Source: Fimbriimonas sp. (GTDB lineage: Bacteria; Armatimonadota; Fimbriimonadia; Fimbriimonadales; Fimbriimonadaceae). From it: DNA of 64,000 nucleotides. Both the position numbers and the translations under genes were made by a program. Under the pieces are notes generated by a model that worked only from the letters and a program-made list of their open reading frames with translations, searched no databases and had not been told where the DNA came from. Where the stretch lies: the NCBI GenBank assembly GCA_031292555.1, contig JARLGV010000101.1:1-64000 (forward strand), given 5' to 3'. Position 1 is the first letter of the stretch. Each line of letters begins with the position of its first letter. Shown here piece after piece: positions 2,523-39,034 of this stretch.

Positions 2523-2539
2523 AGTTGATTCTCGTCGGC

Positions 2540-2992
2540 TCAGCGCTCGACTACTTCCCAAGCATCCCAGTAACGGGCTTCAAAGCGAATATCGTCTCCC
2601 CTCGACTCCTCGATCGTGCTGGTTGAGAAGAACATCAATCGGGCATCGGCAGAAAGCGTCTTGAATCCATTAGCGTAACCGGCCGGAATATAGAGGATGG
2701 TGGGCGCGGTTGCCGATAGAACGTATCGGTGGATTTCCGCGCTCTTATCAGGATTCTCCCAATCATCGACCTTCACGGCCGCGACGATGGCGGAACCACT
2801 TACCGGCAGGACATACTTGGCCTCTTTCTTGTGGCCGTGCCAGGCTCTGACGAATCCGGTGACATGGTTTTGTACCATGTAGAATCGCTTAACGTCCGAG
2901 AACGAGAAATCGTTGGCAAACGTAAGTTGCCCACGATCGTCCACGGCAAGACCAGCCTTTATGATCCGAGGCGTTTCATTGCTTTCACTCAT
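2540..2992 (-). CDS. RmlC-like cupin, sugar 3,5-epimerase or ketoisomerase
   Basis: 150 aa single cupin. Histidines at RAWHGHKKEAKYV (residues 49-61) and the downstream YIPAGYANGF (101-110) match the RmlC/WxcM pattern, where a His-containing strand and the PxGxAHGF segment line the active site. The usual His of AHGF is Asn here. Members epimerise or isomerise 4-keto-6-deoxy nucleotide sugars in the cytoplasm. It sits 10 bases after the SDR gene at 3003-3950 and 17 bases before the RmlD-like gene, so it is mid-operon. It could also correspond to the C-terminal cupin of CapF/WbjC, which acts in UDP-L-FucNAc synthesis. Exact reaction not resolvable from sequence alone. Confidence 0.75.
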   Translation of the reverse strand: MSESNETPRIIKAGLAVDDRGQLTFANDFSFSDVKRFYMVQNHVTGFVRAWHGHKKEAKYVLPVSGSAIVAAVKVDDWENPDKSAEIHRYVLSATAPTILYIPAGYANGFKTLSADARLMFFSTSTIEESRGDDIRFEARYWDAWEVVER

Positions 2993-3002
2993 CTGAACAA
3001 GT

Positions 3003-3950
3003 TTAGCGGAAATCGAGGTGAGCCTTAAACATATCCAGGTACCTATGGTTCGTATAAATCGGATTGTTCACATTCTTAATCCGACCTTGCTCTAGTATTG
3101 CTTTAAGCTCCCCTATACCGTCGTCCACTGTGAAGCACGGATCAAAGCCCAGTACCTGCTTCGCTTTGGCACTGCTGACTTTGTAGTTGCGTGAGTCTTC
3201 GAATTTCATGTCGACTACTTCGACATCTAGATCGGGGAAGTGCTGTTTCACGGCGGATGCCAATGTCAGCATCTTCATGTTCGTAGTATGAATATTGAAG
3301 ACGCCCGACTCAGGGGCCTCCACCGCAAGGATGGCCGCTCGAGCTGCGTCTCGGACATGGAGAAGCGGTCGCCACTGCTCACCACCGAACACCTTGATGT
3401 GCCTTTCTGTATGAGCTTTGACCGTCATCGTGTTTACCACGAGATCCAACCTTATCCGCGAGAATTGATCGCTTATTCCAAACAGGGTGCCGAGTCGGAA
3501 GACGATTGCGTTCTTACCGCTCAAGAACGTCTCAGCCAGACACTTGGTGGTTGCGTACACGGAGAGGGGTCTTAATGGCGAGTCTTCGGTCAGTTCTCCA
3601 TCTTGGGCGCCATAAACCGAACATGTCGACATGAAGACGATACGCCCGTCGAAGTTCTCTGCGAGCCATTTGACGGTTTCAGTATTCACATGCTCGGATA
3701 CCTCTGGGTCCACCGAACATGCTCCATCGCCGACGATCGCGGCGAGCCAAATCACGGCATCGGCCCATTCAATGTGCGGCCTGAGTGCCGCTTCGTTTCG
3801 CACATCTCCAAACGCGAAGTCGACACGCTTCCGATAGCTTTCCTCGAAGAGTAGATTGTCGAACACCCGCACTTGATGTCTGCTTCCAGAGAGCAAATCA
3901 GTAACTGCGCCCCCTACATATCCGGCTCCTCCCACAACAAGTAGATTCAT
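3003..3950 (-). CDS. NAD-dependent epimerase/dehydratase (extended SDR)
   Basis: 315 aa. GGAGYVG (7-13) binds NAD. The active site is the STCSVYG strand (108-114) with the YATTK pair (Tyr132, Lys136), placing it with GalE-type epimerases acting on nucleotide sugars. It lacks the TDK/DEVYG-type signatures of 4,6-dehydratases. It closely resembles the C-terminal part of the membrane-anchored SDR at 26623-28212: both share AAIVGD/GAIVGD, QWRP(L/F)xHVxD and an RNYxV motif near the C-terminus. The 177 bases between it and the WecC-type gene suggest it may have its own promoter. Substrate unknown; a role in making one of the polymer sugars is likely. Confidence 0.82.
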   Translation of the reverse strand: MNLLVVGGAGYVGGAVTDLLSGSRHQVRVFDNLLFEESYRKRVDFAFGDVRNEAALRPHIEWADAVIWLAAIVGDGACSVDPEVSEHVNTETVKWLAENFDGRIVFMSTCSVYGAQDGELTEDSPLRPLSVYATTKCLAETFLSGKNAIVFRLGTLFGISDQFSRIRLDLVVNTMTVKAHTERHIKVFGGEQWRPLLHVRDAARAAILAVEAPESGVFNIHTTNMKMLTLASAVKQHFPDLDVEVVDMKFEDSRNYKVSSAKAKQVLGFDPCFTVDDGIGELKAILEQGRIKNVNNPIYTNHRYLDMFKAHLDFR

Positions 3951-4127
3951 GATTCTCTAGCAGACACAGGTTTTGGTGATTTTTACCTTACGCCTTACTA
4001 TGGCACACGCGCCATTTCCCACCTTGCATCGCAATTCAATCCATGCGGACTTTAGCCTCTCGGACGGCGGCCGACGATTCCCGCAGGTCCTTTGGCGGGA
4101 AGAAGAACTTCGCGAGGGGCCATTGTC

Positions 4128-5411
4128 CTAGTCAGGCTTTCGTGACGGATGTGAGCCCACAACCTGAACGGCGAACCCCGATCGAACCCAAAATTCGGCG
4201 TCCAGCACGCCACGTGTGTCAATCACTTGCTTCCCGGCCATTGACCATGCTTGCGTCGGCTGCAGGTTGCGGAACTCGCTATGATCGACGAGAAGCAGCA
4301 GCAAATCAGCGCCACTAAGGGCCGCATGAAGGTCCGTTACCGATCGAAACTTGGGGTCGAGTCGTTTCACGTGTGGATCGAAGCAGCGGAGCGAATACCC
4401 TTCCTCGGTCAATAAATGGATAACGCGCATGGCCGGACTCTCCCTAATGTCGTCCACATCTGCCTTAAACGACATTCCGAGGCAGGCGATGACGTACTCC
4501 GTAGGTGTTCTCCCGATGGACGTACTTCGCACCAGTTCTACAACGTGCTCTGGCATTCCGTCATTGATTCGACGTGCCAACTGGATGAGTGGGGACTGAC
4601 CTGGAGCTGCTTGAGCGAGGAACCAGGGGTCTACGGCGATGCAATGTCCACCAACGCCGGGGCCGGGGCTGAGCACCCTGACCCTGGGGTGGTGATTTGC
4701 AAGGCGGATCGCCTCCCATACGTTGAATCCTACAGTCTCTGCAATAAGTGCAAACTCGTTCGCGAGCGCAATATTGACGTCTCGAAAGGTGTTCTCGATG
4801 AGCTTGACGGCCTCTGCGGTGATGGCGTCGGTCTCAATAATCTCGCCCGTTACAAAACTGGCGTAAAGCTCCGCGCCGGCTTGGGCGGATATCTGGTTGA
4901 TTCCACCGACGACTCGGTCATTCTGGGTGAGTTCGACCATTATCCGGCCAGGCAGCACCCTTTCCGGCGAGTAGCACAGCATAAAGTCAACACCCGCCCT
5001 CAGCCCAGACTGCTCAAGGATCGGCTGAACCAAGCCGGAAGTGGTTCCTGGTGGCGACGTGCTTTCAAGCACAACGAGGCAACCGGGTCGCAGGAACGGG
5101 ACCAGAGATCGGGCAGCAGCTTGTACCGATTGAAGATCGGCTTGGAGGTTGACGGTTAGGGGCGTCGGAACTGCGATGATGTATGCATCGCAGACCTCGG
5201 GAGTGTCTTGTGCGGCCAGATTGCCGGATGCGACGCAGGAGACTACCAGATCGAGTAGTCCAGGCTCTTCGACATGTAACGGGCCGACATTGATAGCTTC
5301 GAGAATCTTCTCGTTAAGGTCGACTCCGACCACGTGCTTACCCGTCGCGGCCAATATGGCAGCCGTGGGGAGACCGATGTAACCTAACCCAACTACACAC
5401 ACCGTCTCCAT
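4128..5411 (-). CDS. wecC: UDP-N-acetyl-D-mannosamine dehydrogenase (WecC type)
   Basis: 427 aa, typical of UDP-sugar 6-dehydrogenases. Visible features are the NAD-binding GLGYIG (8-13), ESTSPPGTT (116-124), YSPERVLPG (147-155), Lys203 and the catalytic cysteine in GGHCIAVDPW (Cys257). The enzyme oxidises C6 of UDP-ManNAc twice to give UDP-ManNAcA, an acidic building block of exopolysaccharides. The 2-epimerase at the end of the same operon could supply the substrate. The ESTSPPGTT motif and overall pattern favour WecC over UDP-glucose dehydrogenase. It lies 70 bases downstream of the flippase gene on the same strand. Confidence 0.9.
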   Translation of the reverse strand: METVCVVGLGYIGLPTAAILAATGKHVVGVDLNEKILEAINVGPLHVEEPGLLDLVVSCVASGNLAAQDTPEVCDAYIIAVPTPLTVNLQADLQSVQAAARSLVPFLRPGCLVVLESTSPPGTTSGLVQPILEQSGLRAGVDFMLCYSPERVLPGRIMVELTQNDRVVGGINQISAQAGAELYASFVTGEIIETDAITAEAVKLIENTFRDVNIALANEFALIAETVGFNVWEAIRLANHHPRVRVLSPGPGVGGHCIAVDPWFLAQAAPGQSPLIQLARRINDGMPEHVVELVRSTSIGRTPTEYVIACLGMSFKADVDDIRESPAMRVIHLLTEEGYSLRCFDPHVKRLDPKFRSVTDLHAALSGADLLLLLVDHSEFRNLQPTQAWSMAGKQVIDTRGVLDAEFWVRSGFAVQVVGSHPSRKPD

Positions 5412-5481
5412 GTGAGATTCAACTTGGAACGGCCTACTATACCTTTCGGTTCCCGCAACCTCGGCAGAGTCGCCGGATGCC

Positions 5482-7047
5482 TCAGGTTCGGGCGAGCCGC
5501 CCCCTGACCTTCCCGATCACCTTTCCATAGATTGACTTGGGAATCAAGCCGACGGCGGTCGCGATGCCGAGATAGAGAGCTGCGGCGAGGGTCCCCAAAA
5601 TGAAGAAGCCGATGGTTGCGTCCATCCGGCTTGTTGGTTTGGCGACCAACTGCGATCCGTAGTAGGTCACAACCGAACAGATCGCCACAACAAAAAGGAA
5701 CCATCGTGCCTTTGCTGTCGACTCGTTGGGAAGATCCACCAATCGAGGAAGGATGAATGTGAACGCAACCGCCGACACCGCCCAAGTCGACCCGGATGCG
5801 ATGACGGTTCCGAGGGGACCGATCGTCATGACGAGAACGATGGTGAGCACGAGGTTGCCGACAAGGTTGATCACGACGTAGGCCGTTTCGACCCAGACTT
5901 TGCCGATCGCCCGGCAAATCGCCGTACCCGGTCCTGTCAGGATGACTGCGCTGGCATTTCCAGTAAGGAGGATCAAAACGATCAGCGCAACTTGAGGCCG
6001 TGAATATCCGAGCCACATGAACATGAGTCGATCGTGAAGGCCGGCCACGATCACGGTGACGATCCCTGCCGCGGCTGCCACCAGTACGATCATGTTCGCG
6101 TAGAGCCTTTGGACGCCGACCCAGTTCTTTGCCGCGTGCATGGAGCCGGCCGCGGTCAGCAGTGGGGAATAGAAGAACCGCGATACTTCCATCACCAACA
6201 CCGCTAGGCGTGCGGCTATGCCGTAATAGCCGACCCATGTTGTAGAGGCGAATCTCGCGAGAACCAGCTTGTCCGTTTGGTCTCGAAGCGCCTGAGAACA
6301 CGATCCGATAATCAGAAAGAAACCGTACCGCGCCATCGACTTCAGTTCCACGACAGTCGGCGTGGTGGGCACGAGCGATATGCCGCCACACAGTTTGTAT
6401 GCCGTTCGGAAATAGAGAACCGAGGCAACGAGGGTTCCGGCAGAGAGGCCTATAAGAAGGCCCTCGTAGGCATAGTTGAGGCGGATGAGGATGATCGCCG
6501 TCACGTAATTCACAACTAGCGCGATCGCTTGTATGACGGTTACGACGCCACTGCGTTGGCAGCCAGAGATCGCACTCCCCATCGTGTCATTGATGCCGCC
6601 CAGAACCGTGACGCATACGACGCTAGGGAATACCCAAGCAACTTGGCTCGCATACTGAGCTTTGATGTGCAGGCCATGAATGAGCGGATATCGAATCATC
6701 CACACGCCTGATCCCAACACAAGAAGGAATACCAGGATCGACAGGACTCCGATTCGAATCATCCGGCGAATCGTCGCGTAATCGTCGGTGCCGTGCGCCT
6801 GGCTGATCTTCCAGAGCAATGTTCCATTCACGGAAGTCTGGAACATCGCACACAAGGACGCGATCGCGGTCATCAACTCCCAAATGCCGAATCCCTCGAT
6901 TCTCAACTTCGAAGTTATGAAGGGAACCGCGATCAGCGATGTGGTTGCCGTAACGACACGGCAACCCATAATCAGCCCGCTGTTCTGGAACAGCCTCCGT
7001 CTTAGTTCGCTGTCCTTGGGATCGGGCAAATTACGAGGCTGTTCCAT
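5482..7047 (-). CDS. Wzx-like oligosaccharide flippase (MOP superfamily)
   Basis: 521 aa polytopic membrane protein with about 14 predicted helices spread over its length. An early conserved segment (LIAVPFITSKLRIEGFGIWE, residues 38-57) is typical of polysaccharide flippases. It should move lipid-linked repeat units across the inner membrane. Its start codon lies inside the end of the Wzz-like gene (17-base overlap), so the two are co-transcribed and probably co-translated. Together with the co-polymerase, the export protein and the ligase/polymerase-like protein at 20017-21369 it makes a Wzx/Wzy-type assembly line. The substrate is unknown. Confidence 0.88.
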   Translation of the reverse strand: MEQPRNLPDPKDSELRRRLFQNSGLIMGCRVVTATTSLIAVPFITSKLRIEGFGIWELMTAIASLCAMFQTSVNGTLLWKISQAHGTDDYATIRRMIRIGVLSILVFLLVLGSGVWMIRYPLIHGLHIKAQYASQVAWVFPSVVCVTVLGGINDTMGSAISGCQRSGVVTVIQAIALVVNYVTAIILIRLNYAYEGLLIGLSAGTLVASVLYFRTAYKLCGGISLVPTTPTVVELKSMARYGFFLIIGSCSQALRDQTDKLVLARFASTTWVGYYGIAARLAVLVMEVSRFFYSPLLTAAGSMHAAKNWVGVQRLYANMIVLVAAAAGIVTVIVAGLHDRLMFMWLGYSRPQVALIVLILLTGNASAVILTGPGTAICRAIGKVWVETAYVVINLVGNLVLTIVLVMTIGPLGTVIASGSTWAVSAVAFTFILPRLVDLPNESTAKARWFLFVVAICSVVTYYGSQLVAKPTSRMDATIGFFILGTLAAALYLGIATAVGLIPKSIYGKVIGKVRGRLART

Positions 7048-8329
7048 CGGAGCTTTGCCCTGCGGACCGCTTCGCCTTTCGCCTTGCCTTTACGTTGAGC
7101 ATTCCCGCACAGAAAAGGAACCCGAGTACGCCTCCGATCGCCGGGTTTCGGGCATACCGTTTGTTTACGGGAAGGTCCTCGATGTACGGCTCCTCCACCA
7201 GCGCCCACTTCACTTGGTCGACTTTGGACGCTACCTTGGCTTCCTCGTATTTTGCACGCAGGGTGGTCGATACGGTGCCCAAGATCGTCACTTCTCTTGC
7301 TTTCTGTGCGACTATAACGGCTTCTTCAGGAGCGGCCGTAGCTAGCTCGTTTACGATCGCCAACTGATACTGGAGCGTCATCTTGTTCGCCTCAAGCGTT
7401 GCAATGGCGGGGTCCAAATTGACGTCGACGCTCTTCAGGTAGCGCGCGATCTCCTGGTTTAGGGTGCTCTTGGTGACTTCGATCTCACGTTTCGCGGCTA
7501 CAACCTTCGGTGCGTCTGGACCCAAAGTTGTTTCGAGCACGTGGAGGCCGTACTCCAAAGAGACCAACTTGGTGCGGAAATCTCCAAAGCTCTTGATGCC
7601 GGTTGGAAGGTCTGGCATCGTGGGTATGAGCTTGGCCTGCTGTCGCGCGATTTTAATACTTGCCTCGACAGTGCCCAATTGAAGCTGCAGATCGAGCCGT
7701 TCCTTCAGATAGGTGCCTGCCGACATGGGGTCCGTCGGACTGATCGGAGCCTTCATATGTTTCTCGTACTCGGCGAGATCTTGTTCGGCTCGTTCGAGCT
7801 TCCCCTCTTGTTCGTGTACTGACTCTTCCAGGTATTGAGCCTGGATCCCGGCAGTTGTGAAGAGAATTTTCTTCTGCAGTTCAGTGACGCCGTCAAGGGC
7901 GCCACGCACTACCTTTAGAGCCTTTGCCCGATCCCAATCCTCCCAGGACACAACAAGGAGAGCCTGCTTCTGTTTTCTCTCGGTTTGCAGGCCCTTTTCG
8001 ACTGCTCGCCGGGGTAGGCCAGTCTGCTTCATGATGTGCGTAACTACACTTCGGCTGGTGAGCACGCCTTCCAGCACCTGCATCGGGTCTGGGGCGTTTG
8101 GACTCAATGCCGACGCTAACGATGCGCCTGCAGATCCTCCGAGATCCGAAGGCAGCACGGTTAGAATCGTCGCATCCGCTTTCCAACGGGGTGGGACGAC
8201 CAAGGTGCCGATTAGGACGACGCCGGCACTGATAAGCGTCCACCTGAGGATTAGCTTACGTTGACCGCGCAAAGGATCCGTAAACGCGCGAAGATCGATC
8301 TCGCCTGAATTGTCGGGTGACTTTTGCAT
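7031..8329 (-). CDS. Wzz-like polysaccharide co-polymerase / chain-length determinant
   Basis: 432 aa. One transmembrane helix lies near the N-terminus (about 27-46, ILRWTLISAGVVLIGTLVV), followed by a long periplasmic region rich in predicted helix and coiled coil, and a second helix near the C-terminus (about 397-413). A short basic tail follows. This is the PCP topology that sets chain length or couples polymerase to export. No Walker motifs or tyrosine-rich tail are present, so the BY-kinase domain often fused in such proteins is missing and no kinase gene is adjacent. It sits between the export-protein gene and the flippase gene. There is no good ribosome site before the ATG. Confidence 0.85.
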   Translation of the reverse strand: MQKSPDNSGEIDLRAFTDPLRGQRKLILRWTLISAGVVLIGTLVVPPRWKADATILTVLPSDLGGSAGASLASALSPNAPDPMQVLEGVLTSRSVVTHIMKQTGLPRRAVEKGLQTERKQKQALLVVSWEDWDRAKALKVVRGALDGVTELQKKILFTTAGIQAQYLEESVHEQEGKLERAEQDLAEYEKHMKAPISPTDPMSAGTYLKERLDLQLQLGTVEASIKIARQQAKLIPTMPDLPTGIKSFGDFRTKLVSLEYGLHVLETTLGPDAPKVVAAKREIEVTKSTLNQEIARYLKSVDVNLDPAIATLEANKMTLQYQLAIVNELATAAPEEAVIVAQKAREVTILGTVSTTLRAKYEEAKVASKVDQVKWALVEEPYIEDLPVNKRYARNPAIGGVLGFLFCAGMLNVKARRKAKRSAGQSSDGTAS

Positions 8330-8356
8330 AAGGAAATTCGTTTCTGATTTTTGGGC

Positions 8357-8387
8357 GCCGATCCCGTCAGGTCAAGACGGGATCGGC
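8357..8387 (-). other. Strong intercistronic stem-loop without U-tract
   Basis: A perfect 12-bp stem (gccgatcccgtc at 8357-8368 with gacgggatcggc at 8376-8387) and a 7-base loop fills most of the gap between the stop of the export-protein gene and the start of the co-polymerase gene. On the transcribed strand it is followed by GCCCAAAAATC, not by T residues, so it is not a classical terminator. It may protect the 3' end of the upstream message or reduce read-through so that the export protein and PCP are made in different amounts. Confidence 0.7.
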
Positions 8388-8394
8388 ACTCAAG

Positions 8395-11300
8395 TTACTT
8401 GACCAGGGCGTGGACGATGGCGATAAGGAGTCCGGCGTTTGTGACCTGCGCCAGTTCGGTCGCAAAGTCTGCACCCTTGTCGCGCAGGTGGTCGGCCATG
8501 ACCTTGGTCGGAATGAAGATCGTGTCTCCTGGCTCCAGACGCGTCTTCATCGAGGCCTTCAGAATGCTGCCCGAAGCTCGAATCACGATGATCTGTTCGA
8601 GTGCCGCATCCGATGTCGCACCGCCAGAGTGATCGATGTAGTAGAGCATGCTCCTGCCCTGCTCGAACCTAACAGCCGTAGCAGAGGCCACCGCACCAGT
8701 TACTACGACTGAGATCGGCGTTTCGGGCACATAGATGACGTCGCCATCGCGCACGACGACATCGTCACGCGAGCCGGGATGCTTAAGGGCCTTTTCAACG
8801 TTCACGTTGATCGTCCCAAGCGGCTCAAGGCTTGCCGGCTTTAGTTCTCGAGCCGGAGTTGCAGCAGGCTTCTCGGTCAAGCCGTTTGTACTGTTCGGTC
8901 CCGAATTGGTGTTCGGCGCAATTCCGCCGGCCGCCACCGTGACGGAGGGCTGGCTCGCCTTGGACGCCTCGGTTAGGGCTCGCAGCTTGTCGACTTCGCT
9001 CCGTGCCAGGGCACGCTTAAACTCGTCGGCCTGAATCGTTGTGATAACTTCCTGAATGCGAGGGCCAAGAGTGACTTGCGCCTCCGTCCTCAAGTTCTTC
9101 GCAATTCTCGTGAACTGAGAGCCTAACGGATATGCGTTTGGCAGGACCCCGCCAGCTCGTTTGAACAGTTGGGAGAGATGCACGGTGTTCGAGGTGACCA
9201 GGTAGGGTCCAGGGTTCTTGACGTATCCCAACACCGTGATCGTCATGGGTTGATCCATGATCGTCGCGTCTTCGGGGATGGTTACATAGTCGCCGTCTTG
9301 AAGAATGATTGCCGCCCCCGCGGGGCCTTCCATCTCTTGCAGGTCGAACTTCTTAACGGGTGTGCCCTCAGGAGTGCGGGCCGTCGCCAACTCGATTCGA
9401 TCGCTTGCTTTGGGTGTTGGGCCACCGGCGATTCTGATGAGGTCCTGAAGGGTCATTCCCTCGGCTCGAGGATAGGTCTTTGGAGCCTGCACGGCGCCTG
9501 CAATCGAGACGCTCTGCTTGGGACGAAACTGGGTTTCTTCCTTCGTATAGACGTTAAGCTTGTCACCCGGCTTGAGCACGATATCGCTCGCCGGATCGTG
9601 GCTCATGACCTTGTTCAGGTCGATGATCTTCATCTCTCCAAACGTGCCATCCAGGTTGAGACGCTGCAAGTAGGCACGATCGGCATAGGCGGTCGGAAGA
9701 GGGTTGCCCGCAATTGCGAGCAGATCATGCACGCGCATGCCCTGGGAGAGCGTGTAGTGGTTAGGCACTTGAACCGCGCCCACGATGTCGACTTCCTGCT
9801 TCGGCTGGAAGTTGGCTTGCTCTCTAGTGTAGATCGTGACTAGGTCTCGGCTGGCCAACTCGGGATTGTTAGAAGCGTCACCCTCAAGCGCCTTGGCAAC
9901 GTTGAATGTGATCAACGGGCCAGGCGTTCCGTCCAGATTCGTGCGCTGGATGAACGCGTGATCCAAGTCCGCATTCGGTAGAACGTTGCCCGCAAGAAGG
10001 ATCAGGTCGCGGACCGTCATGTGAGGGCTTAGTGGGAAGCTGAGCGGCTTTACGACTATCGCTGGCGCCGCCGCTGGCTCCGGTACCTTTCCGCTTTCCT
10101 TGATGCCGTTCGCGTTTGTCGCTGCGACCGTATTCTGTACGGCTGTCGCGGCGGCCGTGTTCTGTACCGCTGTCGCGGCAACCTCAGGTCCCTTTGACTG
10201 GGCTGTCCCGGCGTCCTTGGGTACATCCTTGACTGTGTCAGTGACAAGGCCCTGAACTGGACCTTGTATTGAAACCGTTTGATCTGCGATATACGCGGAC
10301 TCGCGGACAGTCAACACAGTCAATGCATCGCGGTCTTGCAGGACGACGTCGTCGGTCGGATCACCGAGCATCGCCTTCCTCAAATTGATCTTCAGGAGTG
10401 GCCCGACAGTTCCGTCGAGGTTTGTCCTCTGAACAAACGCGAGAGTGTCGAAGGCATCGGGAGCCAAGCCGCCTACTTGGAGGAGGACGTCCTTGACGGT
10501 CATGTTGTCCTTTCGCTCAAAGGTGCCCGGCTTGTTGACCGCGCCTTTGACCGTGACCTTTCTCACGCCCATCCACTGGATGTCGTTGACGTCGTAGATG
10601 ATCAGTTCGTCATCTTCCTGAAGAAGGATGTTCGCCTTGGGATCTCGCTTATACGCCTTCTCCAAGTCAATTCTGATCAACGTGTGGGTGGTTTGGTCGT
10701 CGTTTCGACGAACCAGATCGGCGCGCTCCATGTATGCATTGGGCATGAAGCCTCGAGCTGCATCGATCAGGTCGGCGACGGTCATGCCCTTGGTGAGACC
10801 GTAATGGTGCGGTTGGTCGACCGGACCGACAATCGTCACTTCGTTGACTAGGTCCTTTCGAATGCTGTAGACGTTTACGTCGTCCTCGTCCCGCATCACT
10901 GGGTTATTCGCCGCATCCTTTATCTCAGCGTTGACGTCAAGCAGATACCGCTCCACGTGATCTCGCGTGGTTTCGATGGAGATCTTTTGGGCGATACCGC
11001 TCGGCTTGACTCCGCCGCCGAAATGCAGCAGGTCCCTAAGTTTCTCGTTGCCTTTAAGTTCGTAAACCGATGGACGGACGACTTCACCTTGAAGCGCCAC
11101 GAGGTTTTCTGCTGGCGGAATGTAGATGACGTCGCCGGGCTGAAGTGGTACGTCCTCGCGGTAATTGAGGTTAACAAGCTGATCGTACAGGTCGAATTCT
11201 CGGACGAATCCGTTGGTCCTCTTGAGGACGATACGCCTCAACGTTCCTTTCTCGTTGGGACCGCCTGACATGTAGATCGCGTTGAACAGCGTCATGATCG

Positions 11301-12213
11301 AGGGCATCTGGTACGTGCCGGGCGCATAGGACTCGCCGCTTATCGTGATCGACATCGAACGCAGCTCCTTAAGCTGAACCGTGACGTCGGCATCCCGGAC
11401 TCCCTTCTTTACGGCGATTTTTAACGTGTGCTCTAGCTGAGCCAGGGTTTGGCCCCGAACTACGATCTTTTCGCCGGTCTGAGGAATCGTGATATATCCT
11501 TGGCCGTCAACCGTCAAGTCCTGATTCGTCGGATCTTGCGTCGGGCTGGAAACCCGCATCGTTAACGCATCGCCCGGGCCAAGTTGATATCGATCCGGCA
11601 CGGGCATGAAGATGTTGCCCAGGTTGTTCTGCTCAGGGCCAGTGATCGTCTTCGTAGGATCGATATTCAGCCGGTACGCGCCGTTATTGAGAAGCAAGCG
11701 CCGCGCTTCGATCGCATATCGGGCCGCTTCGAACTGGGAGAAACCAAAAATCGGTAGACCGTGGGCGCCCGTAAACTTGTGCTTGGCCATGATCTCCGTG
11801 ATCGAACTCGGAGGGTTGACGCTAATGTTCGCTGGTTGGCCGGCGGCGTTGGTTGACGATTGCTGTTGCTGCCCAGGGTTGACGACTACGACTCCGGGAG
11901 CCCCTCCCGTCGTTGTTGGATTGGCTTGGCCCCCGCCCTGACCTCCCGGAGGGAGCAGAGGATTACCGACGGCTCCTGGCAGTTGCACTCCGCCTCCGCC
12001 TCCGCCACCTTGAGCCCCGCCTTGTCCCAAAATTGTTGAGACGGGCGTACCTGTGCCCTGATCGTTCTTTTTCTTGTCGTCGTCGTTCTGCCCGAGCTGG
12101 CCAAAGGCCGTTCCGGCGCCCAACATCATCAGAGCCAGGATTGACAAACTGCCGATAGAGAGGGTTCGACGAGCAGAAAGGCGTAGCCTGCGATACGTCT
12201 TGGAGGTTTTCAT
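8395..12213 (-). CDS. Giant multi-SLBB outer-membrane polysaccharide export protein (Wza-like)
   Basis: 1272 aa from MKTSKTYR, several times longer than classical Wza (about 380 aa). A signal sequence (about residues 18-39, SIGSLSILALMMLGAGTAFG) precedes a Gly/Gln-rich linker. A poly-export domain begins at DRYQLGPGDAL. Then come nine SLBB-like units, each with a (V/I)xGxVxxPxxY-type first strand and a later LLxxAGG-type helix. An Ala-rich insert splits unit five, and an Ala/Pro/Asn-rich linker precedes the ninth unit. The C-terminus ends in a hydrophobic helix. No lipobox cysteine is visible. By family the protein forms a periplasm-to-surface conduit for polysaccharide. Start chosen because a longer frame adds 46 residues with no signal-peptide character before this Met. 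Confidence 0.88.
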   Translation of the reverse strand: MKTSKTYRRLRLSARRTLSIGSLSILALMMLGAGTAFGQLGQNDDDKKKNDQGTGTPVSTILGQGGAQGGGGGGGVQLPGAVGNPLLPPGGQGGGQANPTTTGGAPGVVVVNPGQQQQSSTNAAGQPANISVNPPSSITEIMAKHKFTGAHGLPIFGFSQFEAARYAIEARRLLLNNGAYRLNIDPTKTITGPEQNNLGNIFMPVPDRYQLGPGDALTMRVSSPTQDPTNQDLTVDGQGYITIPQTGEKIVVRGQTLAQLEHTLKIAVKKGVRDADVTVQLKELRSMSITISGESYAPGTYQMPSIMTLFNAIYMSGGPNEKGTLRRIVLKRTNGFVREFDLYDQLVNLNYREDVPLQPGDVIYIPPAENLVALQGEVVRPSVYELKGNEKLRDLLHFGGGVKPSGIAQKISIETTRDHVERYLLDVNAEIKDAANNPVMRDEDDVNVYSIRKDLVNEVTIVGPVDQPHHYGLTKGMTVADLIDAARGFMPNAYMERADLVRRNDDQTTHTLIRIDLEKAYKRDPKANILLQEDDELIIYDVNDIQWMGVRKVTVKGAVNKPGTFERKDNMTVKDVLLQVGGLAPDAFDTLAFVQRTNLDGTVGPLLKINLRKAMLGDPTDDVVLQDRDALTVLTVRESAYIADQTVSIQGPVQGLVTDTVKDVPKDAGTAQSKGPEVAATAVQNTAAATAVQNTVAATNANGIKESGKVPEPAAAPAIVVKPLSFPLSPHMTVRDLILLAGNVLPNADLDHAFIQRTNLDGTPGPLITFNVAKALEGDASNNPELASRDLVTIYTREQANFQPKQEVDIVGAVQVPNHYTLSQGMRVHDLLAIAGNPLPTAYADRAYLQRLNLDGTFGEMKIIDLNKVMSHDPASDIVLKPGDKLNVYTKEETQFRPKQSVSIAGAVQAPKTYPRAEGMTLQDLIRIAGGPTPKASDRIELATARTPEGTPVKKFDLQEMEGPAGAAIILQDGDYVTIPEDATIMDQPMTITVLGYVKNPGPYLVTSNTVHLSQLFKRAGGVLPNAYPLGSQFTRIAKNLRTEAQVTLGPRIQEVITTIQADEFKRALARSEVDKLRALTEASKASQPSVTVAAGGIAPNTNSGPNSTNGLTEKPAATPARELKPASLEPLGTINVNVEKALKHPGSRDDVVVRDGDVIYVPETPISVVVTGAVASATAVRFEQGRSMLYYIDHSGGATSDAALEQIIVIRASGSILKASMKTRLEPGDTIFIPTKVMADHLRDKGADFATELAQVTNAGLLIAIVHALVK
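10126..10179 (-). repeat. Two-copy 27-bp direct repeat inside the export-protein gene
   Basis: Two near-identical blocks (10130-10152 and 10157-10179, spaced by 27 bases) encode two copies of an ATAVQNT-type nonapeptide in an Ala-rich insert that interrupts the fifth SLBB unit. The difference is two silent or near-silent changes. It looks like a recent in-frame duplication in a flexible linker. Confidence 0.75.
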
Positions 12214-12517
12214 AGATAAGTGGAAATCCCTAATCAAACGATTGGAGCCATGGCATAGTACCATACGAAATCGACCGGTTTTGGCCGCAAACAGACTCAA
12301 AGGAGTGCCCGACTCGCGCCTATTCCGATGGGTCGAAATCATCTCCTTCATAATAGATGTCCAGGTTCGACATCGGCCAGATTATTGGGCCTTAAGGCAT
12401 TGGCCAATCGCACACTGCGAAGAACAATCTTCCGTTACAGGTAGTTCCACTCCACTACAACGGCCCTCAAACTAGCGTGTTGCCCCTTCGAACGTCCAGC
12501 CATGCCGAAGGAAATGG

Positions 12518-31603: not shown

Positions 31604-32236
31604 ATGATGCATCGTAAAGCTCTCCTATCGCGTGTACTGGTCGCAATCCTCTTGGTGGCGATCTTGCTTATTCCAATCGATGCCCTCGCCCAACGGCGCG
31701 GCTCATTTGGTGGTGGTAGATCCTTTGGCGGTTTTGGCGGCAGCTCGCGCATGTCGACTCCCCGCTTCGGCGGATCGTTCGGTGGCCGTTCGTCCGGCAG
31801 CAGCTTCGGAGGGATGCGGCGAAGCACTGGTTCGTTCGGATCGAGCGGTGGCTCAGTTCGATCGGGCGGTGGTTCGTTCGGCCGCTCCGGTAGCTCGTTC
31901 GGCAGTTCTCGGACCTTCACCGGAACCCAATCGCGCGGTGGCTCGCCATTCGCGCCCAGAACTTCCTTCGGGGGGCCGGGATATAACTACTACGGCGGAG
32001 TTCACTACTACAATGGCTATGCAATCCACTCGTATGGCATGGGATATGGAAGCTACTGGTTCCATCCTGCCTGGTATTACTGGATGCCGTTTCACCCGGC
32101 GTTCTACTACGGCCCTCCCACCTATGTGAACGGATACTATGAGCCGGGCGGCTTCAGCTTCTTCCGCTTCATCATCGGCACGCTGATCATCGTGTTCATA
32201 TTCGCGATCATCATCCGGTTGTTCACTCGACGCTAA
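31604..32236 (+). CDS. Secreted Gly/Ser-rich protein with Tyr/Trp-rich region and C-terminal membrane helix
   Basis: 210 aa. A signal sequence (about 8-29, LSRVLVAILLVAILLIPIDA) is followed by about 95 residues of FGG/SFG-type low-complexity sequence. A Tyr/His/Trp-rich stretch (about 125-170, with YYGGVHYYNGYAIHSYGMGY) comes next. The protein ends with one strong membrane helix (about 188-206) and a basic LFTRR end. This layout is seen in many uncharacterised bacterial membrane proteins; a function cannot be given. The aromatic and glycine-rich part may phase-separate or stick to surfaces. Its stop codon interlocks with that of the convergent vanW gene. Confidence 0.65.
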   Translation: MMHRKALLSRVLVAILLVAILLIPIDALAQRRGSFGGGRSFGGFGGSSRMSTPRFGGSFGGRSSGSSFGGMRRSTGSFGSSGGSVRSGGGSFGRSGSSFGSSRTFTGTQSRGGSPFAPRTSFGGPGYNYYGGVHYYNGYAIHSYGMGYGSYWFHPAWYYWMPFHPAFYYGPPTYVNGYYEPGGFSFFRFIIGTLIIVFIFAIIIRLFTRR

Positions 32237-32970
32237 CGGTACTGGACTACCCGGTTCATCGCCGGGTAGGTGTCCATTGAGATGAGTTCTTTTTGGCCGC
32301 CAGAGAGGCGATAGACCGCTACCTCGCACCCTTCCTTACCCGTATTGCGCACGTGCTCTCGACCGGACCGGGCCCCGATTTGGTAGGTCTGGAAATCCTG
32401 CTCTTGACGAAGCTCGGTCAGGACCTGAGGTTTTGTCTTCAAGCTTTCGGCAGCTACCAGTCTGATTACGAGGATGTCTCCCTCCTGAGAGCCTTCGATG
32501 CGAACAGGGAAGGAATAAGGGTTGCGAAATCGAAGATCGATATTGCTAAATGCCACCGCCGCGTCTCTGCCCGGCGAAATGTATCCTGGAGCGAAGCGGT
32601 GCCGGTGTCGCTCAACGATCGTCATGCCGGCCAAGAGAGCGGCATTGTAGAGGGTCGTCGAAGTTTGGCAGACTCCACCACCCCAGTCTGAGATCAGTTG
32701 ACCGTTGTAGCTGACAGGCGCTCTTCGATAACCTTGGTCCTGGGAAAACGATCCCACGCGATGGTTGAATGAGAACACCTGGCCAGGCATGATCTTTGCC
32801 CCCTGTAACCGGTCGAGGGCAAGCAGAGAGTTATGGCGTTGAGAATGGCTTCTGCCGTCCAGTGACGTACCGAACGCGGCTATCGTGCGATCTCTCGGCA
32901 TGGACGAGAACGATAGGCTGCCGGCCGCGATGGCAACCACGCACGCCGCGATCGAGATAGCAGTCTTCAT
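32233..32970 (-). CDS. VanW family protein
   Basis: 245 aa with a cleavable or anchoring N-terminal hydrophobic segment (about 5-22). The VanW core is clear: IMPGQVFSFNHRVGSFSQDQ, then GGGVCQTSTTLYNAALLAG with an invariant Cys, and FSNIDLRFRNPYSFPVRI. VanW proteins occur beside vancomycin-resistance genes and in many envelopes, but their biochemical role is unproven. The fold and partners suggest binding to, or processing of, peptidoglycan. Its start overlaps the alpha-2-macroglobulin stop by four bases, so it is the last gene of that operon. Confidence 0.87.
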   Translation of the reverse strand: MKTAISIAACVVAIAAGSLSFSSMPRDRTIAAFGTSLDGRSHSQRHNSLLALDRLQGAKIMPGQVFSFNHRVGSFSQDQGYRRAPVSYNGQLISDWGGGVCQTSTTLYNAALLAGMTIVERHRHRFAPGYISPGRDAAVAFSNIDLRFRNPYSFPVRIEGSQEGDILVIRLVAAESLKTKPQVLTELRQEQDFQTYQIGARSGREHVRNTGKEGCEVAVYRLSGGQKELISMDTYPAMNRVVQYR

Positions 32971-35900
32971 TTGACCTCCATAGGGGTTTCAGGGCCGGCG
33001 GCGCTCAACGAAATGTCATACATGCTCGACAGGGCTGTTGGCAGGGCGTTGCTCACGCCAATCCCCTCCGCCTTCATGTTATATGTGATCGTCTGCTTGC
33101 CCTCGGGTAGGCGCCGAACGAAGAAGCACACCTTCTCGTCACGAACGACGATCTTATCCCACCAATAGGTCCACTCCTCGCCTTCGTCCAGTTCCTCACG
33201 CTCAGTAACCCGGCAGTTGCTTGGCGTCGGGTCTTCGATGAGCAGGAACTCCCTTGGCTTAGTCGATTCGATCGTCAATTCGACCCGAATCGTGTCACCG
33301 CTGGTGGCGCTCGTAACCGGCCTGCGACTTGGAAGGAGCCGAAGCGTGCCATCTTCCAGCTTGCGTGTCTCCATAACGAAGTACTTCCGAGAGATATGGA
33401 AGCCAGGGACCGGATTGGACGGCAGGATTGGAGTCTCGATCTGAGTAGCCTTTAGGTCGAGCGACGAATAACAAGTGCCCTTTCCCTTCATTTCGATTCG
33501 GACGACATTGGATCCGGGCTGCATCTCTGAAACCGGGATCGTGAACGACTTTGCCGCTCCGTCGATACTTGTGGGTATGAGGTGGACGTTACCAGCCAAG
33601 CGGCCGTTGACGGTGACCCGAGCATCGAAGCCGCCGGCAAGTTCCTTCGTTCTAGACATGTAGGCGGTGAGCCCTACCAACACATACGAGGTGTCTCTTG
33701 TCGAGTCCCACATATCGAATCGACGTCGGGCCATTAGGTAACGAACAATCCGTGGCACAATCGGATCACTTGGCCGGCCGGCCATAAACGCGGTCAGGCA
33801 GATCGCCGTGCCTTCTGCTCCCCATTCCTCGTCGCCGTCGCTCCAGTATGCCCCTTTCGGGCTCTGGTGGGCCGTACGAACGAGCCGATCCAAGTAAGCA
33901 TCGCGTTTGGCCTCATATTTGGGGCCCAGCCCGTTTGCCGCCAGCGCGACGGTTGCCAATACCGATGCGTCAGCCTTTCTCAAGATGAGGCCCTCCATTG
34001 CCTGTACCGCCTCCTTCGATTTTCCGTATCGCGAGAGGGCATAGACCACGTAGCTTCGGTTCCGCAGGGAATCATTCTTCCAGTCCTTGGATTTCATGCG
34101 CTTGATACACCAATCGATCGCCTTTCCCGTGTCGGCCTTGTGGGTTGGGTACCCGGCCTGTCGGCTCCGATCCAGTCCATCAAGCACGAGCGCGGTCATG
34201 AACGGATCGCTCTTGTCGTTTTGCCACCAGCCCCAGCCTCCATCCGAATGCTGCATCACGCCTAATCTCACCATGGAGTCCTCAGCGATCTTCACGATCT
34301 GGCTGTGCAGGGCGGGCTTGGGTATTCCAAGTTCACGAACCGTTTTCTCCACTAGGACGCTAGGCATGAAGCGGCTCATTGTCTGCTCAACGCACCCATA
34401 GGGGAAACCGACCAATCCGTCAAGTGAGTTCATGAGTGCGCCGGTCATAGTACTGCTAAGGTCTATCTTGAGGCGCCCGGTAGTTCGATCCGTATTAGGT
34501 GCCAACCGCACCTCAAAACTCTTCGATTGGGTCATCACATCCGACTGTGACTGCCACTCCGGAATTCCGTGGGCGAACACTTGGAACCCTTGTTCGACTC
34601 CGTCGTTGGCTCCGCCGTCGATCCATGCCTTCGCGGTAAGCATGGCTGGTCCAGGGTCATGGGTGTTAAGCGTGAATGGAACCGCCGTCGGCTTGTCCTT
34701 GGATACGAGAACTGTTTGATTGCTCTTGCCCTCGATGGCAATCCCTGTCCCTACAAGATTCAAATGGACGCTTTGGTCAACACCGGTGTCGTTCGTGACG
34801 ATCACGTTCATCTGGCTTCGATCGCCTTGAACCATGTAGTCGGGCATCTCCAACCGAACCATAAGGTCCTTCCTGACGTTGAATTTGGCAATCGCCTTGC
34901 CGACGATCGTATCGTCGGTCACACCAACCGCAGTGGCACGCCATTCAGTCAAGTTGTCGGGAAGCGTTACTGTTACGTTCGCTATGCCATCAAGACCGGT
35001 TTGGACGGAGGGCATCCATGCGGCAGTGTCCAAGAACTTCCTTCGAATCGAGACGTTGGGTGAACCCTTGTCCCCGCCGTCCAAGTAGACCTCTGCGAAC
35101 GAGTAGGTCGTCGCGACCTCGTTACTTCGGCGCGGATAGAACGATTCGAGGATGTTGAAGCCATCTTCGCGGATTGCATAGATCGACTCGTCGACAACGC
35201 CGAGCGAGACGTCTGCCGAAATGGGTTTCCCTTTGGGATCTCTCGTTCGTATTGTTAGTTTTGCCGTGTCCCCGGGCAGATAGGTGGCTCGGCCGCTTTG
35301 AACCGATATCTGGAGTTTGTGGTGCTCCGGATCGACCGACAGGCGCGTGTTGGCTTCGTAGAACTTCTTCTTCCGGACATATGCGACGCTGACGAAGCAG
35401 TTGGGAGAGTATTCGCTCGCGACCGGCAGAGTGATCAGGGTCGTTGTGCCAGGCAGGGCCACGACCCGCTTCCAGATTATGGTGCTTGTTTGGACAGTCA
35501 CGAGCGCCGACCCGCCGGGGCTGATCGTGCGAATCATGACCCTTGCCTGGTCCCCTGCCTTGTAATGCCGTTTGTCCAGGGTGACGTCGATGCGCGATTG
35601 GTCTGCTTCCGCGTTCCAGGCCTCGCCCAAGACGTAGACGTGATCCTCGGAGCGAATGATGTGTCCTCCTTCGTCCCGACTATCGGCGACCATCAGGATG
35701 GAACCGCTTGTCGAGGCTCGAACCGGGACATGAACGATGCCGTCAGGCCCGGTCCGGCAGGTATAGGTGCCAAGTTGCCGGAGAACCGACTTCTCGTCCT
35801 TCCAACTTTCCTTGCTGACCGCTATCGTTACAGTGGCATTTGGAACGGGTAATCGATCGTCCGTATTCGTCTTCGTGGATACTTGCAGGTCGATGTCCTG

Positions 35901-37658
35901 GCCCGGGCGTGCCAAATAGTTCTCGGATTGGACGGTAAGGTCAAAGGCTCCTCGAGTGGCTCGGACGCTTCCTGACTCCGACACGTATTTGTGCGACTCG
36001 TCAGATGTGCTGACGTCAATGCTGAAGTCGAGATCGTTCATCGGAATCGCGGAGTCGTTGGGCTGGCGAGATTCAAATTCGACGATCGCCTGCCCCTTTG
36101 CGTCGGTCGTCACTTCAACCTGTTTGGAAAGGTCGCCGCCCCGGTATGCGTAAGAGCTTTCAGCTTCGTCGTCGTCCGCGTCATGTCTGAATGCGGCAGA
36201 CGCGTAGATATTCGCGTTCAGTTTCGCTCCGACGACCGGGCCCCCGTAATAGTAGGAGCACTGAACCGCAACCTGAATCTTGTCTCCGATGATATAGTTT
36301 GCCCTTAACGGCTTGATCTGGATGCTGAATTCGGGCTTTCGATACGAGACCATCGACACGGTCTGAGAACCCATTCCGCCGAATCCTGAAGCCTCGATGC
36401 GATAGCTTCCAGGCCCCGCTTCCTTGCTTGTAACGAAGCTTCCATGAAAGGCGCCATGGACCGATGCCTGGACCTCTAGTTTGGCCATTGGCTCGTCGTC
36501 GGTGTCCTTGACAACCAAGTGAATCGGGCCCGGCTTGGGTGGAAGGTACTTCTCACCGCTCCGACTCCTTACAATCCCCTTGAACTGGACGACATCGCCA
36601 GGGCGGTATACAGGCCGATCGGTATAGAGAACGATATTTGCGTCTCCGTCCCCGTTCGATTGTGCATTTGTGTAGACGCCGACAACAGCCACGGAACGCC
36701 CGACTGTAGCAAGAACGGCGGCTCTAGCGTCGTCGTTTGGTCCCGCCACCATGTACCTCGACTCTGCCAAGCCATCGACATTCGTCCTCGTAACGGCAAC
36801 CCCCGCTGACGTGGGGCGCGAATAGACCGTCGCATTCTGAACGGGTTGTCCAGACGTCAGGTCTGTAACGAAAGCCAAGAGGCGTCCCCGGGCCGTCTTG
36901 GTCACCAACGCGATGCTGCTGACATTGACATAGGTCGAGATGCTCGCATGGGCGCCCTTACACTTCACCCAGTAAAATCCGGGATTCAGCACCGGCAGGG
37001 ACAACGGGTCGACAAATGCTCCCTCGTAGTCCCGATTCTTGATTCCATGGCGAAAGTCGACTTCGCTGGACGAGAATCCTTTGAAGACAGGCGGCATGTC
37101 GCTGCCTTCTCCAATCCTCAAACCGTTGACCGCTCGTCCGAACATCCCAGATTTGAGCATCTGCTCAATGTCGATGCGATCCACCTGGACGTCGACAAAA
37201 GAGCCAACTCGAAAACCGTGCAATTCCAGTTTCGGCGCCTCTGACGGCATCCAGACCCTTTGGCTCGCATAGAGTTTCAGATATGGATCGTTAGGATCAA
37301 GACGCAATGTAGCGCGCGTTGGGCGTCCTTCCGTCACCGTAATCGTACGTGGCTTTTGAGTGTGCTCCGACGCCGAAACCGACAAATCGTAATCGCCAAC
37401 TTTGACGTTGCGAAAACGGAAATGCCCCTTCTTGTCGCAGGTAACGGAACGCTCCCGGGCGTTGTCGTCGTCATGGACGCTCAACATCACTTCGGCTTCT
37501 GCGAGTGGCTTGCCGGTCTCTGCAAGCAGCACCGTTCCCTCTAGTTGTCCGAAGGGGGTTTCCTGCGTTACTCCAAACGAGAAGGCAATAATGCAAAGCA
37601 CGAGACCGGCGACAAGAGCAAGGAATTGACCGATCTCAATGCCGAGGATTCGTCTCAC
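32967..37658 (-). CDS. Bacterial alpha-2-macroglobulin with intact thioester
   Basis: 1563 aa. An N-terminal membrane helix or uncleaved signal (about 8-29) is followed by a CarboxypepD_reg-like beta-sandwich (LEGTVLLAETGKPLAEAEV). Macroglobulin domains (MG2 at YTDRPVYRPGDVVQFKGIVR), a long bait-containing middle and the thioester domain with GCVEQT follow. Cys1089 and Gln1092 form the thioester that traps attacking proteases covalently. Start set at GTG 37658: GGAGG lies 4 bases upstream and the codon overlaps the stop of the preceding gene (GTGA). The usual partner PBP1C is absent from the window; VanW and a polytopic protein are the operon mates. No lipobox is seen, so it may be held by its N-terminal helix. 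Confidence 0.92.
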   Translation of the reverse strand: MRRILGIEIGQFLALVAGLVLCIIAFSFGVTQETPFGQLEGTVLLAETGKPLAEAEVMLSVHDDDNARERSVTCDKKGHFRFRNVKVGDYDLSVSASEHTQKPRTITVTEGRPTRATLRLDPNDPYLKLYASQRVWMPSEAPKLELHGFRVGSFVDVQVDRIDIEQMLKSGMFGRAVNGLRIGEGSDMPPVFKGFSSSEVDFRHGIKNRDYEGAFVDPLSLPVLNPGFYWVKCKGAHASISTYVNVSSIALVTKTARGRLLAFVTDLTSGQPVQNATVYSRPTSAGVAVTRTNVDGLAESRYMVAGPNDDARAAVLATVGRSVAVVGVYTNAQSNGDGDANIVLYTDRPVYRPGDVVQFKGIVRSRSGEKYLPPKPGPIHLVVKDTDDEPMAKLEVQASVHGAFHGSFVTSKEAGPGSYRIEASGFGGMGSQTVSMVSYRKPEFSIQIKPLRANYIIGDKIQVAVQCSYYYGGPVVGAKLNANIYASAAFRHDADDDEAESSYAYRGGDLSKQVEVTTDAKGQAIVEFESRQPNDSAIPMNDLDFSIDVSTSDESHKYVSESGSVRATRGAFDLTVQSENYLARPGQDIDLQVSTKTNTDDRLPVPNATVTIAVSKESWKDEKSVLRQLGTYTCRTGPDGIVHVPVRASTSGSILMVADSRDEGGHIIRSEDHVYVLGEAWNAEADQSRIDVTLDKRHYKAGDQARVMIRTISPGGSALVTVQTSTIIWKRVVALPGTTTLITLPVASEYSPNCFVSVAYVRKKKFYEANTRLSVDPEHHKLQISVQSGRATYLPGDTAKLTIRTRDPKGKPISADVSLGVVDESIYAIREDGFNILESFYPRRSNEVATTYSFAEVYLDGGDKGSPNVSIRRKFLDTAAWMPSVQTGLDGIANVTVTLPDNLTEWRATAVGVTDDTIVGKAIAKFNVRKDLMVRLEMPDYMVQGDRSQMNVIVTNDTGVDQSVHLNLVGTGIAIEGKSNQTVLVSKDKPTAVPFTLNTHDPGPAMLTAKAWIDGGANDGVEQGFQVFAHGIPEWQSQSDVMTQSKSFEVRLAPNTDRTTGRLKIDLSSTMTGALMNSLDGLVGFPYGCVEQTMSRFMPSVLVEKTVRELGIPKPALHSQIVKIAEDSMVRLGVMQHSDGGWGWWQNDKSDPFMTALVLDGLDRSRQAGYPTHKADTGKAIDWCIKRMKSKDWKNDSLRNRSYVVYALSRYGKSKEAVQAMEGLILRKADASVLATVALAANGLGPKYEAKRDAYLDRLVRTAHQSPKGAYWSDGDEEWGAEGTAICLTAFMAGRPSDPIVPRIVRYLMARRRFDMWDSTRDTSYVLVGLTAYMSRTKELAGGFDARVTVNGRLAGNVHLIPTSIDGAAKSFTIPVSEMQPGSNVVRIEMKGKGTCYSSLDLKATQIETPILPSNPVPGFHISRKYFVMETRKLEDGTLRLLPSRRPVTSATSGDTIRVELTIESTKPREFLLIEDPTPSNCRVTEREELDEGEEWTYWWDKIVVRDEKVCFFVRRLPEGKQTITYNMKAEGIGVSNALPTALSSMYDISLSAAGPETPMEVK

Positions 37659-39034
37659 AACGCCTCCTCTGCTCTGTCCCGGCGCGAGACCGCAACAATG
37701 CCGATGGCGGCCAGAATCATGGCGATCGTCCAAATGCCGAATGCATGCAACTTGGCCTGTCTAGTGAAGTCGATTGTCTCCCCGATCCAGTCCACCGCAA
37801 CTGAGTTGGTCGCCCCCGCCGCTATCGCCACCGCAAGCGGCAATGCGCTGGAAGCAGGACGAGTTGTAACGAGAAAGGCTCCCAAGCCAAGGCCGACCAC
37901 CACTCCCGAAGCACCCTTAGACCCGAGTACGACGATCGACAACGCAGGCAAGCAGATCAGGACGAATCCCCACAGTATCGATCCCACCGCTCGAGTCGCC
38001 GGTTTGGCGGGACGCCGTTCGATGAACCAGTCGAAGAACATCATCGGAATCATTCCGCCGACGACGATTCCAGTTACGCCGTAATGCTGCCCGATGTCTA
38101 GAGCCCGCGAGGTATCGGGCGACGCATCCCTAAGGACGCGATACATAAGCAGTCCGATTGTCGGTCCCATCGCGAGTATCGCGCGGTCGTTTCCCAGAAG
38201 CAGCAGAATGAAGGAGCCCTCCAGAACAGTGGCAGCGATGCCGAAACCGCGAAGCACCGAGAATCCGATCGTGGCCAGCGCCAACCAAGTGGCGGCAGCC
38301 AATCCGGTTCGTAACGGCGTTGCCGGAACATCTTTGGGCAGGAGCCAATTGGTCACAAGTGCGGCCAACGCAGGCATGCCGATTACGAGCCAGAGATTTG
38401 GCCCGATTGAAAGTCTGGAAACAAGATATCCGGCTGTTGCGGCGAGAACCGCGATTACGGGTGGCTCGACCTTTGCCATGGGCTTCGGAAGGAGCTTGCG
38501 GGCGCCAAGGAACAGGACGCCAGCGACAGAGAGCCCGATGCCCATGGCAACTCCAACTAGGGCCCGGCTCGTGGGTCCTTCGCTGTCCTTTCCCAGATAA
38601 TCCGTCATGGCGACGATGCCGCCGACGATGGCGGCCGCGGTCGGGCCCCGGAGTTCACCGAAGACGATTGCCCCAATGCCGACCGCAAATGCGTAGGCCA
38701 ATCCCACCTCTTGAAAGCTGTTTGCTCGAACGAGATGCGCGACACAGGATCCGGCGATCGCCAGCGCCAAACTTCCCCCAATTGCCAACCCACTGATTGC
38801 GACCGCGGCGATCGCCACGGTCCCACCAGCAACGAGGCTTGCGATCACTGCCCGCTGATCGTCGACTTGTCCGAATCTGATGGTGGCGTATCCTCCGAGT
38901 ACCAACAGGAAGACTAGAGCTGCAACAGACCGAAAGTTAGGAACGGCGAAGCGTTTCTGTCCTTCGGGGACTTCGCTCAAGACGATGCAAAGTGCGGCAA
39001 GCAGTAACGCAAGAATCGGTTGAATGGATGTCAT
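37655..39034 (-). CDS. Polytopic membrane protein of unknown function
   Basis: 459 aa, very hydrophobic, with about 12-14 predicted helices and short Gly/Ala-rich loops. No transporter signature that I recognise. A loop near residues 144-155 (DYLGKDSEGPTS) and one near 300-315 are the main polar segments. AGGGG lies 5 bases before the ATG. It is the first gene of the operon with alpha-2-macroglobulin and vanW; its stop overlaps the macroglobulin start codon. A role in the same envelope-protection function is inferred from that coupling only. Confidence 0.7.
   Translation of the reverse strand: MTSIQPILALLLAALCIVLSEVPEGQKRFAVPNFRSVAALVFLLVLGGYATIRFGQVDDQRAVIASLVAGGTVAIAAVAISGLAIGGSLALAIAGSCVAHLVRANSFQEVGLAYAFAVGIGAIVFGELRGPTAAAIVGGIVAMTDYLGKDSEGPTSRALVGVAMGIGLSVAGVLFLGARKLLPKPMAKVEPPVIAVLAATAGYLVSRLSIGPNLWLVIGMPALAALVTNWLLPKDVPATPLRTGLAAATWLALATIGFSVLRGFGIAATVLEGSFILLLLGNDRAILAMGPTIGLLMYRVLRDASPDTSRALDIGQHYGVTGIVVGGMIPMMFFDWFIERRPAKPATRAVGSILWGFVLICLPALSIVVLGSKGASGVVVGLGLGAFLVTTRPASSALPLAVAIAAGATNSVAVDWIGETIDFTRQAKLHAFGIWTIAMILAAIGIVAVSRRDRAEEAL

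Follow-up and report, generated by a model that had tools for sequence, protein, structure and literature searches.

A trio of genes found across Armatimonadota, encoding a polytopic membrane protein, a thioester alpha-2-macroglobulin (A2M) and a short VanW-domain protein, suggests a previously undescribed guard-and-repair unit of the cell envelope. We describe it here from a 64,000-nucleotide stretch of a Fimbriimonas sp. contig, referred to in its entirety as the window. The unit is defined by the genes themselves, their overlaps, their co-occurrence and joint absence, a natural fusion of two of them, a predicted fold, and the conserved thioester of the A2M together with the conserved Cys and His of VanW. 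Support for the genetic unit is strong, the three genes very probably sharing a joint genetic function, and from it we infer the following arrangement: a periplasmic protease trap would act together with an L,D-cross-linker and with an inner-membrane partner of pyrophosphatase fold. To this full guard-and-repair reading, taken as a whole, we assign a probability of about 0.5.

A2Ms are protease-trapping proteins like those of the human immune system. In bacteria, a guard-and-repair pairing in the periplasm has been proposed for Type I A2M and PBP1C (PMC4498604, PMC5764988). The locus studied here bears on two open questions, namely what bacterial A2Ms do and why they travel with cell-wall enzymes. 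In particular, the finding that another kind of cross-linker accompanies this trap, and is fused to it in one instance, would be independent and testable support for the guard-and-repair idea. What is more, the newly recognised VanW transpeptidases would gain a concrete biological setting.

Gene architecture

The three-gene minus-strand operon with four-base overlaps that had been proposed in the preliminary description is borne out, the overlapping stops and starts being GTGA and ATGA (Table 1). Since a start codon at -4 recurs at both junctions in related loci, these overlaps are more than chance. For the A2M, a longer frame beginning with TTG at 37733 is also open, and the GTG at 37658 was preferred because the -4 start is kept in relatives. 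Scans for promoters and terminators returned no more than would be expected by chance, and PADLOC gave no defence-system match. At its downstream end, the operon meets a convergent plus-strand gene for a Gly/Ser-rich protein (31604-32236), whose stop overlaps that of VanW tail to tail by 4 bases (32233-32236). Elsewhere in the window, a 1318-residue ORF on the minus strand (8395-12351), located within a polysaccharide gene region, looks like a polysaccharide-export protein of unusual length in which many domains are repeated.

Table 1. Positions of the genes, junctions and thioester codons in the window.
Feature	Coordinates	Strand	Basis
Polytopic membrane protein gene, first of the operon	37655..39034	minus	ORF, ATG start, 459 aa, 16 helices
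Type I (thioester) A2M gene	32967..37658	minus	GTG start, 1563 aa, Pfam domains
Short VanW gene	32233..32970	minus	245 aa, PF04294 match, N-terminal membrane/signal segment
GTGA stop/start overlap, membrane protein/A2M	37655..37658	minus	sequence; start codon at -4 (-4 overlap) in 23/27 loci of order-level relatives
ATGA stop/start overlap, A2M/VanW	32967..32970	minus	sequence; start codon at -4 (-4 overlap) in 28/28 complete loci of order-level relatives
CVEQ thioester codons, A2M residues 1089-1092	34383..34394	minus	alignment numbering, counted from GTG at 37658

The A2M protein and related genes of the genome

According to Pfam, the A2M carries MG2, bMG3, bait-region, A2M, TED (PF07678) and bMG10 domains, as well as a CarboxypepD_reg domain near its N terminus. 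Its thioester motif, PYGCVEQ, is of the CxEQ type and lies within the TED domain, with C1089, E1091 and Q1092 invariant in the order-level alignment. A thioester in TED, combined with MG2, bait, A2M and bMG10 domains, places the protein among Type I bacterial A2Ms and apart from Type II (Mag), in which the A2M is without a thioester. Type I A2Ms are usually, but not obligatorily, encoded together with PBP1C, and here VanW is found instead. Both the A2M and the short VanW have one hydrophobic N-terminal segment each, and therefore both should face the periplasm. That said, three otherwise intact cassettes outside the order (L108, L112 and L120) encode an A2M without CxEQ, the L112 sequence reading PYGSAED, and this counts against the main reading.

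In total, the genome contains two A2M and two VanW genes. The second A2M (L005, G000:C76, 5712-11454) is without the CxEQ motif; it overlaps a thioredoxin-fold and polysaccharide-deacetylase gene by four bases, and an AMMECR1-like gene lies upstream of it. This deacetylase could be a further partner acting on the wall. The second VanW, 454 residues long, includes a G5 domain and is not near any A2M. The proposal that VanW takes the place of PBP1C would have been weakened by a PBP1C paired with another A2M copy, which was looked for in this genome and not found. Namely, the PBP1C-type C-terminal domain (PF06832) is absent from the genome and never rises above the curated cut-off across 113 genomes of the order, and the single transglycosylase-domain (class A) protein found in the genome is encoded on contig C87, apart from both A2M contigs.

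The short VanW protein

The short VanW matches PF04294 at an E-value of 2.5e-43, with 147 bits against a Pfam cut-off of 27. A 2024 finding, summarised in PMC12729407, identifies VanW-domain proteins of C. difficile as L,D-transpeptidases with a Cys-His-small-residue triad. In the proteins studied here, all 26 order-level sequences aligned keep Cys101 and His124, and all 24 phylum-level ones keep the aligned Cys106 and His129, the same positions being invariant in the long VanW form as well; the identity of the catalytic residues in the short form comes from the literature and from alignment, not from a solved structure. An action of VanW on peptidoglycan becomes more credible because VanW-domain proteins include L,D-transpeptidases and because neither the Cys nor the His varies here, and the short form is predicted to be, probably, an active L,D-transpeptidase.

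Could such an enzyme serve sensing and not repair? In this alternative, bait cleavage or thioester exposure would signal an attack on the envelope, and VanW would fix the A2M or another protein to peptidoglycan, with no cross-linking of glycan strands. Attachment of proteins to peptidoglycan is indeed within the capacity of YkuD-family L,D-transpeptidases (PMC12729407), and in the gene fusion described below the enzyme is part of the A2M chain. However, no attachment site is visible, and VanW enzymes are so far known only as cross-linkers, and we consider the sensing alternative unlikely.

Another possibility is that the short VanW has no catalytic role and, as an accessory that binds peptidoglycan, holds the A2M at the wall, in which case the unit would be a protease shield only. 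The protein is little more than a VanW domain: in its 245 residues, Pfam found no second domain, including PG4 as in LdtCd4/5. PMC12729407 mentions some VanW proteins without L,D-transpeptidase activity, which counts against the main reading, and the short form lacks the extra regions of the long one, which also counts against it. On the other hand, the Cys and His are invariant in all order- and phylum-level sequences aligned, which argues for catalysis, and a purely binding role is, in our view, quite unlikely.

Conservation within and beyond the phylum

In the order-level sample (113 genomes), two forms of VanW can be told apart, the short one and one of approximately 470 residues. The short form lies downstream of an A2M and on its strand in 60 genomes of the order, and is directly adjacent to it in 59. 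In G072, one gene is inserted between the two, a 730-residue ORF (L078, G072:C1, 4289-6481) which we take to resemble a BlaR1/M56 sensor. The two nearest families (f1 and f2, together 93 genomes) contain a Type I A2M in 64 genomes, and these have the membrane protein in 64 of 64 cases and the short VanW in 61 of 64, the A2M match in the three genomes without VanW being shortened, which fits a contig end. None of the three genes is present in 28 of the 93 genomes, and one fragmented genome has the membrane protein only. Within the window's own genus, the unit occurs in 10 of 20 genomes (in one on a cut contig), while the other 10 are without all three genes, two of them having only a distant A2M at 25% identity.

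A further family, f3, retains A2M and VanW, mostly at separate places, and no membrane protein was detected there. Tight linkage is therefore not obligatory. In G045, VanW lies apart, with the membrane protein and the A2M still together. At one locus of family f3 (L067, G098, 1713-8638), an A2M without a nearby VanW is followed by an overlapping gene for a 604-residue TPR protein.

Relatives of the unit fall in Armatimonadota, including Fimbriimonadaceae and Chthonomonadaceae. Outside the order, 46 of the 69 short VanW genes among the matches listed lie directly downstream of an A2M, in 23 families. At 23 outside-order loci, a recognised gene of the membrane-protein family immediately precedes the A2M, and at four further ones an unrecognised polytopic ORF occupies its position. 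In other words, the adjacency of VanW to A2M, reported from this genome in the preliminary description, is phylum-wide in the neighbourhood survey and not restricted to it.

At least two A2M-VanW pairs are found in sequences labelled as other phyla, both on MAG contigs and both without the membrane protein. In a Gloeobacterales MAG (L164), a partial A2M lies nine bases from a short VanW, and the contig end cuts the locus. In the other, a contig of the 'Firmicutes bacterium UBA6811' MAG (L193), A2M and VanW form one protein of 1706 residues, with the thioester A2M first and VanW last, as in the operon, and with the thioester and VanW residues present. A natural fusion of this kind is strong evidence that A2M and VanW act jointly. 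One more locus with the full trio (L153) is labelled Actinomycetota, and it is probably the same contig as that of an Armatimonadota-placed genome.

One could argue that the conserved proximity reflects nothing but shared expression of envelope genes without any joint function, and the unlinked arrangement in most f3 genomes, along with the separate VanW of G045, would agree with this. However, the joint presence and absence within one genus, the persistence of four-base overlaps over deep divergence, and the gene fusion outside the phylum all speak against it, making such an explanation improbable. Finally, the VanW name and a weak similarity to the NCBIfam vanW (glycopeptide-resistance) models might suggest a glycopeptide-resistance accessory lying by chance beside the A2M, but, at 56 bits against a cut-off of 365 that is not reached, with an A2M and a membrane protein as conserved partners, and with no vanHAX-type cluster adjacent to the gene at the locus, this is most improbable.

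A membrane protein with a pyrophosphatase fold

No family in Pfam or NCBIfam covers the 459-aa membrane protein, and PF03030 gave no match at E-values up to 1 in any of 25 members of its family. The AlphaFold model (pLDDT 90.3, pTM 0.92) has approximately 16 membrane helices. In a VIA structural comparison, this model matched a proton pyrophosphatase at a Z of 33.0, with an rmsd of 3.3 over 422 of the 459 residues (best unrelated, 7.2). A distant homologue, modelled from the phylum-wide alignment, matches membrane pyrophosphatases (M-PPases) at a Z of 36.7 and an rmsd of 2.9 over 469 of 509 residues (best unrelated, 7.9). Sequence identity between the family and M-PPases in the structural alignments is 11-17%, with the fold matching over nearly the whole length.

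Profile comparison with M-PPases gave a probability of 95.7 over 364 columns for the phylum-wide alignment in local mode, while the order-level alignment in global mode gave nothing, the phylum-wide local mode alone yielding the match. In the control runs, unrelated polytopic proteins reached at most 3 and single M-PPases 5 to 83, two higher scores belonging to genuine members of the family that the control set still contained (L078 and L074). When PDB sequences were searched with the membrane profile (hmmsearch), only EccD and SecG came up, as weak matches that we judged to be chance ones for a hydrophobic sequence. According to the models, then, the membrane protein is predicted to have the 16-helix M-PPase fold.

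The motifs GNTT, DxxxDxxxKxE, KxADxG and DPFKDT occur in all four M-PPases compared and in 0 of 36 members of the membrane family. Because these catalytic motifs have been lost, pyrophosphate-driven ion pumping is predicted to be absent. At the phylum level the family has no conserved acidic position. All 28 sequences have K or R at the positions of Arg299, Arg425 and Lys428, and 24 of 28 do at that of Lys373; if the M-PPase topology holds, these conserved basic residues would be situated at cytoplasmic helix ends near the old active site. An M-PPase-fold membrane family lacking catalytic motifs appears to be undescribed, and the trio reveals a conserved family that neither Pfam nor NCBIfam models. 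The earlier interpretation of the locus is partly supported, VanW being adjacent to A2M across the phylum and no PBP1C-type domain having been found in the genome, and it missed both the constancy of the membrane protein and its predicted M-PPase fold.

The genome also encodes a separate canonical M-PPase elsewhere. In this genus (G000:C9:32717-35608 and relatives), the open frame of the canonical M-PPase spans about 1060-1240 residues, and its Pfam match is split in two, so that a large insertion lies mid-protein.

Proposed function

How might the three proteins work together? We envisage that the genes are co-translated and yield one unit of inner membrane and periplasm, presumably as a complex. 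The A2M would be its Type I protease trap, in which bait cleavage leads to a conformational change and the thioester then bonds to the attacker. Beside it, the short VanW, as a probable L,D-transpeptidase, would strengthen or repair peptidoglycan, doing by a different chemistry the job that has been proposed for PBP1C in E. coli.

The membrane protein, being without a hydrolytic centre, would most likely anchor, sense or energise the complex from the inner membrane. By analogy, it may do for the A2M what MagB does for MagD, setting location and stability, or it may sense or energise. A more specific, and doubtful, proposal is that ions, a ligand bearing phosphate or a signal in the form of a conformational change cross the inner membrane by way of this M-PPase-fold protein, which in this way drives or gates the covalent trap and the cross-linker. 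Arg299, Lys373, Arg425 and Lys428 could line an anion site near the former pyrophosphate site. If true, this would mean that a pyrophosphatase fold has been turned into a signalling or energising subunit.

Comparison with known systems

A search of the open-access literature for macroglobulin with VanW, Armatimonadetes or LD-transpeptidase returned no relevant paper, which is not proof of novelty. The A2M-VanW unit, for which we found no earlier description, seems new, as a variant of the pairing of A2M with a cell-wall enzyme. Its parts resemble several known systems, each in a different respect. With M-PPases (H+/Na+-PPase, PF03030), the membrane protein shares the 16-helix fold; these have about 670-760 residues, however, against 459 here, and their catalytic motifs and PF03030 match are missing from the membrane protein. 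With LdtCd4 and LdtCd5 of Clostridioides difficile, as they are described in PMC12729407, the short VanW shares a VanW domain with Cys and His, whereas those two enzymes are membrane-attached and have PG4 binding domains, and the protein studied here is short, with a single domain found, and linked to an A2M.

The mag operon of Pseudomonas offers another parallel, in that operon partners hold the A2M and the membrane partner, MagB, governs the location of MagD (PMC5764988). That said, MagD is without a thioester, there are six mag genes, and MagB has one predicted transmembrane helix as opposed to sixteen here. Finally, the A2Ms of E. coli and Salmonella (ECAM/YfhM and Sa-A2M) with PBP1C have in common with the present unit that an inner-membrane thioester A2M is encoded together with a peptidoglycan-cross-linking enzyme. 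Unlike those, the A2M described here carries a CarboxypepD_reg domain in its N-terminal part and lacks a clear lipobox, its partner is a VanW-domain protein and not a PBP, and a polytopic membrane gene leads the operon.
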